DNA from: an uncultured Acetatifactor sp.
GTDB taxonomy: Bacteria > Bacillota > Clostridia > Lachnospirales > Lachnospiraceae
DNA length: 64,000 nt
Assembly: GCA_947624245.1 (NCBI GenBank)
Contig: CANQJL010000008.1
Span: forward strand, 29,204-93,203
Reading direction: 5' to 3'
The notes below the pieces were generated by a model. That model was not told where the DNA came from. It ran no database searches and was given only the letters and a program-made list of their open reading frames with translations. This document shows, piece after piece, positions 59,481-60,650 of this stretch (within the stretch, counting starts at the first letter, position 1; each line of letters opens with the position of its first letter). Made by a program: the position numbers and the translations under genes.

Positions 59481-59509
59481 TTGACAGCCGCTCTCTCGGT
59501 CGATATACT
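59481..59509 (+). promoter_or_regulatory. Strong ssrA promoter
   Basis: A perfect TTGACA (59481-59486), a 17-base spacer and TATACT (59504-59509) stand just ahead of the mature tmRNA 5' end. Confidence 0.9.
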
Positions 59510-59520
59510 GAATATACTTC

Positions 59521-59903
59521 GGGGTAGTAAAGGTCTCGACAGGGGTCTTGCAGCTGGAGAAGCTATCCGCAGCTATGCGTTAAATGGCAAACCTAAACTA
59601 AACGCTGATAATAATACTCAGTACGCACTTGCAGCCTAACCCGCTGTGAGTGACGCCGCCCAAGGCGGCTTGTCCGCTCCGGAGCACTCACACTCCGGAA
59701 TCCGGGCATCGACTCTGTGAGAAACGACGCGCGGTAAGCTTTGCCCGCGCGGGCGTACCATGAAGCTACCGAACCGGACAGATTGTCCCTTTTCTGACCG
59801 GCAAGGGAACGGGCCGGAGCAAGACCGGCCGAAAAAACGGACTATGATAGTAGAAGGACAGGGAATGGGCTTTTGGACAGGGGTTCGACTCCCCTCTACT
59901 CCA
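59521..59903 (+). ncRNA. ssrA: Transfer-messenger RNA (tmRNA)
   Basis: tmRNA rescues stalled ribosomes with SmpB and tags the nascent chain for proteolysis. The acceptor stem pairs GGGGTAG (59521-59527) with CTACTCC (59896-59902), with one G-T pair. The T-arm is AGGGG-TTCGACT-CCCCT, and the tRNA-like 5' half contains GGTCTCGACAGGGG. The tag frame runs from GGC 59586 to TAA 59637-59639 and reads (A)GKPKLNADNNTQYALAA. The discriminator is A59903; CCA is not encoded. Pseudoknot-rich sequence fills the rest. The downstream copies of its 3' end are listed separately. Confidence 0.96.
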
Positions 59904-59917
59904 TAGGCAAAATTTAA

Positions 59918-59957
59918 GGGAGTCGAACCCCTTGGGTTCAGACTCCCCTCTACTCCA
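59918..59957. repeat. Inverted and direct copies of the ssrA 3' end (attachment-site-like)
   Basis: GGGAGTCGAACCCCT (59918-59932) is an exact reverse complement of the tmRNA T-arm. GACTCCCCTCTACTCCA (59941-59957) exactly repeats 59887-59903, the last 17 bases of tmRNA, and both copies are preceded by GGGTTC, with one extra A in the second copy. GCAAA follows three bases later in both. The ssrA 3' end is a well-known integration target, so this looks like an old attachment-site duplication. Confidence 0.8.
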
Positions 59958-59963
59958 CTCGCA

Positions 59964-60000
59964 AAGGAATCCTTTCTTTGAAAGAGGATTCCTTATTTTT
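59964..60000 (+). terminator. Terminator of the ssrA transcript
   Basis: AAGGAATCC and GGATTCCTT form a nine-pair stem with an inner TTTC/GAAA stem, followed by ATTTTT. It lies beyond the duplicated ssrA end, so the primary transcript would include the extra copies. Confidence 0.9.
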
Positions 60001-60083: not shown

Positions 60084-60650
60084 ATGGAGACAGGCGGATT
60101 CGCGTTTTATACGGAAAAAGACAAAAAACTGGCGGAGGCGGAACAGCGCAAGATCGATTATCTGGAGGCCCGCGTCGATTACACAAGGCCGGAGAGTATT
60201 CTGAACGTCTATAACAAATCCATCAAGGAGCAGATCTTTAAGACGCCGGTAGGGCTTTTGTATCTTAAAAAGCTGCAGGATTTTCTCTTGAGACAGCCCC
60301 AGATAGACAGAGAGCGTATCGCGCCCATTCCGTTGTACGACACCTACGCGGAGGAACGGGAACAGAGACGGCAGGAGACGGGGGAGAGGAACCGAAAGAG
60401 AGAGGCGGAGCGCAGGGAGGCGGCTGCCGTTCGTTTTCGGATATCCGTGATCCTGAACATACTGTTGGTGCTGGCTGTCTGCGCCATGTTCCTGATCTCG
60501 CTGAACAGCGACCAGCCCAATATATTCAACTACGAGCAGGCGCTCTTGAACCGGTATGCGGACTGGGAACAGGAGCTGACGGAGAGGGAACAGGCCGTTC
60601 GGGATAAGGAGAGGGAGCTGGACTTGGATTCTCTGGAAAATATGCAGTAG
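60084..60650 (+). CDS. Single-pass membrane protein of unknown function
   Basis: I do not recognise this 188-residue protein. It is soluble and charged for about 115 residues (including 'PESILNVYNKSIKEQIFKTPVGLLYLKKLQDFLL'), has a highly basic, Arg/Glu-rich stretch (about 90-117), one membrane helix (about 120-143), and an outward helical tail (about 150-188) rich in Glu. AAAGGAGG precedes the ATG and a good promoter lies upstream, so expression is likely. The next operon starts about 90 bases on. Confidence 0.75.
   Translation: METGGFAFYTEKDKKLAEAEQRKIDYLEARVDYTRPESILNVYNKSIKEQIFKTPVGLLYLKKLQDFLLRQPQIDRERIAPIPLYDTYAEEREQRRQETGERNRKREAERREAAAVRFRISVILNILLVLAVCAMFLISLNSDQPNIFNYEQALLNRYADWEQELTEREQAVRDKERELDLDSLENMQ

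Follow-up and report, generated by a model that had tools for sequence, protein, structure and literature searches.

Imperfect hairpins with an extrahelical base, arranged in tandem units, also occur in integron attC sites, whose R boxes are recognised by an integron integrase and to which the repeat described here bears a resemblance only. The attL/attR scars of islands in tRNA and tmRNA genes resemble it in that an intact gene is followed by a displaced copy of its 3' end, but our unit differs from them by its near-constant short length, its inverted copy of the T-arm, its retained extra base and the lack of any foreign DNA separating the two copies. Replication template-switch (quasi-palindrome) mutations likewise join a local inverted copy to a direct duplication, whereas the unit has two untemplated bases at fixed places and occurs in one lineage at two genes. 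Transcription attenuators and three-segment RNA switches also consist of three segments with mutually exclusive pairing, although no terminator is formed by the alternative hairpin here. In Dehalococcoides, ssrA-specific genomic islands are inserted in the middle of the T-loop (PMC3146451). Unlike the unit, these islands carry cargo, many of them with a Ccr-like integrase module, and a text search of that paper returned no mention of an inverted copy. A literature search for Acetatifactor together with tmRNA found no papers.

The window, i.e., the whole stretch of 64,000 nucleotides that was analysed, comes from the genome (2.53 Mb) of an uncultured Acetatifactor sp., a gut bacterium of the Lachnospiraceae, and contains a complete ssrA gene at 59521-59903, encoding the tag ADNNTQYALAA (ARAGORN and Rfam RF00023, 120 bits; this gene, its promoter and terminator and the parts of the repeat all lie on the + strand). 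A likely ssrA promoter, TTGACA-17-TATACT, was located at 59481-59509 by consensus scan (11/12), and the ssrA transcription unit ends in an intrinsic terminator at 59964-59999, downstream of the module. This strong promoter-like site and this terminator place the repeat inside the ssrA transcription unit. By direct reading, the true T-arm and the 3' acceptor strand with its CCA (copy 1) occupy 59879-59903. The last 17 bases of the gene, GACTCCCCTCTACTCCA at 59887-59903, are exactly repeated at 59941-59957 with an offset of 54 bases, only 37 nt separating the two direct copies, and the 15 nt at 59918-59932 are a perfect inverted copy of those at 59879-59893. The three copies of the ssrA 3' end, two direct and one inverted, that the first-pass annotation had reported are therefore real, and the arrangement occurs a single time in the genome. 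Neither foreign DNA nor an integrase gene was found between or beside the direct copies of the window, the next gene encoding a 188-aa protein (60084-60650) without a Pfam match. Relatives of this protein (GGFxFYTEKDAxLAxxExxKIxYLEAR) lie 3' of ssrA in many congeneric genomes. In two loci closely related to the window, L042 and L217, both the unit and the terminator are replaced by a tRNA-like gene that starts a few bases past the ssrA CCA.

The feature belongs to a recurring T-arm hairpin repeat, of which it represents one unit; the repeat is matched to its gene and located directly behind the CCA of ssrA or of tRNA-Lys(UUU), and its anatomy was parsed in 32 units from these two genes. The design is about 57 bases long and contains no gene: the CCA end is followed by a spacer, by T-arm positions 49-61 copied in inverse orientation, and then by the 3' end of the gene again. 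The spacer, whose sequence is free, covers 16 nt in the window (59904-59919) and 18-20 nt in 25/32 units, the remaining ones being 16, 22, 22, 22 and 25 nt long, plus two tRNA-Lys units with spacers of 60 and 62 nt, each containing a terminator. The inverted copy common to the species, GAGTCGAACCCCT at 59920-59932, is 13 nt long, the two further matching bases being local to the window, and its last two bases are positions 1-2 of the hairpin loop. This loop, CTT in the window, is made of the complement of position 50, the complement of position 49 and then an untemplated T (59933), retained in 29/32 units. Copy 2 of the 3' end (T', 59934-59957) resumes at position 51 and reads GGGTTC-A-GACTCC, which confirms the extra A (59940) between T-loop positions 56 and 57. 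One extra base is present at exactly this place in 32/32 units (A in 22, T in 8 and C in 2). Neither the loop T nor the extra base is templated by the gene or by the inverted copy, yet both are found at ssrA as well as at tRNA-Lys. Besides, loop base 1 of the inverted copy tracks the T-stem of its own gene (C or G type) in 31/32 units; in L024, the host gene and the inverted copy are of one T-stem type and copy 2 is of the other. Most of the stem variation is dictated by the copied gene, the changes being mostly G-U-compatible or gene-driven, and a few drifted hairpins suggest that pairing may have been kept by compensatory change. Units are often arranged in tandem, at both genes, and then mostly measure 56-60 nt, with a single case of 75 nt.

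When a covariance model was built from the 41-nt hairpin and tail, it matched strongly in the ssrA flank of 29 of the 138 Acetatifactor-group genomes; hence the three-copy arrangement is not a product of chance. Inspection of the ssrA 3' flanks of relatives placed the hairpin 14-25 nt past the CCA in several congeners, while it is absent from others, and in relatives without the unit the terminator comes soon after the CCA. When 84,980 species were scanned with a pattern, 24 loci were returned, all but one of them Lachnospiraceae-type ssrA flanks; the exception, L066 (Roseovarius), was rejected as a chance match. Outside the genus, a family scan (299 genomes, 298 genera) recovered the design only in G205, at tRNA-Lys, and an order-wide scan gave chance matches only. 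The hairpin in its ssrA form was not detected in viral contigs, where a looser pattern gave one chance match, nor was any match obtained in plasmids, and phages provided two weak Streptomyces phage matches. The first-pass annotation had regarded an ancient arrangement, conserved in distant genera with no islands there, as what would speak against its own reading of the locus as an integration scar; such conservation was encountered within the genus, whereas distant genera did not show it. Drifted hairpins were also seen at the same place in L190, L140, L144, L023 and L030, where the stems look partly kept or extended though copy 2 is lost. A related-looking hairpin without the extra base, GAACCCGTAGGTTCGACTCCC, follows ssrA at L116, in another genus of the family.

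The units at tRNA-Lys(UUU) first surfaced as weaker matches of the covariance model. In 7 genomes of the genus and in G205, this gene carries the same design rewritten to match that tRNA (...GGGTTCGAATCCCCCGTGCTTCA, spacer, GATTCGAACCC-CCT-GGGTTC-A-GAATCCCCCGTGCTTCA). G015 possesses two tRNA-Lys genes with different tails, and each unit fits its own gene. At L141, L143 and L147, the unit lies past the tRNA's own terminator, and its tail is still gene-matched in L141 and L143. Generic patterns for the other tRNA T-arms of the genus returned only ssrA, tRNA-Lys and chance matches.

On a tree of 81 tmRNA sequences, at least 15 gains or losses are needed to account for the patchy presence of the unit, a count that is rough given the 356 columns and the many weak branches of this tree. 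In 11 pairs of closely related species, the spacer differs at 62/216 columns and the hairpin-tail block at 14/417 (p about 1e-19), the spacer thus diverging about eight times faster than the hairpin and tail, a contrast somewhat inflated by the search pattern, which fixed part of the block for some loci. The tail, mostly outside the search pattern, shows 9/374 differences from the true gene end, compared with 182/352 between the spacer and the downstream flank. GGGG-type ssrA T-stems in the genus are nearly always accompanied by the unit (7/8) and CGGG-type ones rarely, in counts that are not corrected for descent. With related species carrying the same design behind tmRNA and behind tRNA-Lys, the feature is a recurring, preserved module and not the scar of one lost mobile element. 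The extra A had been read in the first-pass annotation as decay of a displaced end, and the short offset as the loss of nearly a whole element. The former does not agree with an extra base that occupies the same place in every unit of two RNA genes, and the latter is contradicted by short spacers in about 30 species, by the tandems and by the failure to find a full-size hairpin-ended element in the 138 genomes. Since both the extra base and the unit are constant, a scar with a decaying copy 2 does not account for the locus.

In contrast to that reading, the expectation that ssrA serves as an integrase target was borne out: it is one in the genus, and integrase genes do lie near ssrA in relatives. 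At L072, a phage-type tyrosine integrase adjoins an attR-like ssrA end, which is followed by a unit. In G063 (C8:22234-44907; L228/L229/L283), ssrA and two units are separated by an island of 22.6 kb that carries a large serine recombinase. The joined ends of this island form an inverted repeat, GGTGTTCGAC...GTCGAACACC, and its attP arms repeat the T-arm motif, the distance from motif to core being 16/15 nt in attP vs 11 nt in ssrA. This is in line with serine integrases, for which the zinc-ribbon motif is closer to the core in attB than in attP, by 5 bp (PMC3783163). A recombinase 55% identical to that of G063 is carried by the ssrA contig of G091. At L052, the left end of a G063-related element abuts copy 2, and an intact large serine recombinase of that kind was not found in the L052 genome. 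In G015 (C56:162981-217496; L152, L231, L230), ssrA is followed by a bare displaced ssrA end without hairpin unit, and the 54-kb stretch between the two is likely an island. Islands thus land beside the module, and they probably use copy 2 as well as ssrA. A copy-2-only pattern, applied to the 138 genomes, recovered no large element ending in the hairpin: all 24 GTTCNGACTCCCSTCTRSTCC sites fall in short units already known, and the unit as the end of a large element was rejected on this ground. Because every copy 2 found in the genus belongs to a short unit, the unit is not an island end.

Regarding the origin of the unit, our best guess, which we hold tentatively, is that strand exchange at the T-loop gave rise to a minimal repeat at the DNA level. 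Like an island, such a unit would rebuild the 3' end of the gene and displace the old end downstream; its own half-site would include the loop T and the extra base, which would explain why these are shared by units at two unrelated genes, and a lineage-specific recombinase is assumed to act in trans. This origin is favoured by the lineage restriction, the recurrence at two genes with identical boundaries, the tandems, the patchiness, the units past the terminator, the untemplated bases and the Dehalococcoides precedent, and is also supported by the insertion between CCA and terminator and by the use of ssrA and its T-arm as integrase targets. Indeed, the units past the tRNA terminator in L141, L143 and L147 fit a cause at the DNA level, and the confinement to the genus, with one tRNA-Lys case elsewhere in the family, argues for a lineage-specific agent rather than a general replication error. 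However, by the standards of known recombinases a circle of 57 bp is very short, an inverted copy that tracks its own gene is unexpected for the fixed half-site of an element, nothing similar was seen in viral contigs or plasmids beyond the weak Streptomyces phage matches, and no recombinase linked to the units was found. A broader proposal, of which we are rather doubtful, is that the units represent a new class of gene-less integrative repeats of about 57 bp, which would adopt the 3' end of the host RNA, form a hairpin with a fixed unpaired crossover base and lead to two-state folding of the host RNA. Replication template switching at the T-arm hairpin could instead have created a direct duplication with an inverted T-arm at its junction, slippage having then multiplied, deleted and homogenised the units. 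A single four-point switch would yield the inverted copy, the direct copy and the duplicated flank, and the spacer and downstream flank do look like local duplicates in L050 (14/16), L062 (13/16), and L056 and L060 (12/16 each). Such an event is nevertheless an unlikely source, as the loop T (29/32) and the extra base (32/32) are untemplated and recur at two genes, leaving the unit not wholly templated; moreover, a general mutational process should not stay within one genus and two RNA genes, and neutral units should drift like their own spacers. Titles and abstracts of papers on tRNA fragments, or on template switching at tRNA genes of bacteria, contained nothing that matches the design. The large serine recombinase elements at ssrA (G063, G091), with inverted T-arm-like attP arms carrying GTCGAACACC, would be in line with the scar of one ssrA island after near-total deletion or, in a variant, with an inverted copy derived from the attP arm of such an element. 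This is very improbable in view of the constant short units, the tandem copies, the tRNA-Lys units, the exact match to the host T-arm and the absence from relatives (138 genomes) of an intact parent element with the same end. In addition, the inverted motif of window-type modules lies about 19-23 nt from the core, at variance with the attachment sites of large serine recombinases (21 nt vs 15-16 nt), and the inverted copy as an attP arm was rejected because of this spacing.

The tracking of the own gene by the inverted copy is better explained by a switch in the precursor RNA, which on the whole we consider somewhat unlikely. The inverted copy (segment 2) would pair either with the true T-arm (segment 1) or with copy 2 (segment 3). 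In the 2:1 state, the true T-arm would be opened and the acceptor strand of copy 2 would take the 5' acceptor strand; in the 2:3 state, the T-arm would be left free, and the extra base, by weakening 2:3, would set the balance. Nearly all slow-changing bases pair in one of these two states while the spacer is free, and loop bases 1-2 match and track the true T-stem only, even in L024 where copy 2 differs. At ssrA, the unit precedes the terminator, and hairpin-like structures survive in the drifted copies L190, L140 and L023. Folding of the full precursor was predicted at equilibrium, ignoring the tmRNA pseudoknots, tertiary contacts, co-transcriptional folding and kinetics, and such folds therefore neither prove a switch nor exclude protection of the T-arm by fast local folding. 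In these predictions, the inverted copy pairs with the true T-arm and the 5' acceptor strand goes to copy 2. Across 18 species, the T:inverted pairing is predicted to be more stable than the native T-arm plus hairpin, with a median advantage of 7.7 kcal/mol, and is the more probable state in 17/18, the two states being near balance in the window (0.54 for T:inverted vs 0.46). The 5' strand is predicted on the acceptor of copy 2 at a value no lower than 0.78 in 16/18 species, and the extra base is predicted to weaken the hairpin by about 4 kcal/mol. In the predicted folds, one segment can thus pair with either of two partners but not with both. They also run counter to the suggestion of the first-pass annotation that copy 2 acts as a decoy freeing the true T-arm, since the inverted copy is given to the true T-arm in nearly all species, although fast local folding might protect it. 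A patchy presence and tandem copies would be odd for a regulator, as would the units past the terminator in L141, L143 and L147, and the equilibrium nature of the supporting folds also weighs against a switch.

Displaced tRNA and tmRNA ends are usually taken as passive island scars, whereas the one described here forms part of a unit that is constant and matched to its gene, recurs at two RNA genes and remains nearly unchanged while the spacer drifts. Natural variants across the genus, with none, one or two units and with or without an intervening terminator, make the question testable. Should the unit prove to be a minimal mobile repeat, it would rank with the smallest known integrative units and might reveal a recombinase chemistry in the T-loop. 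Should it instead be an RNA switch, the maturation of tmRNA and tRNA-Lys would be under a control that is absent from Rfam 15.
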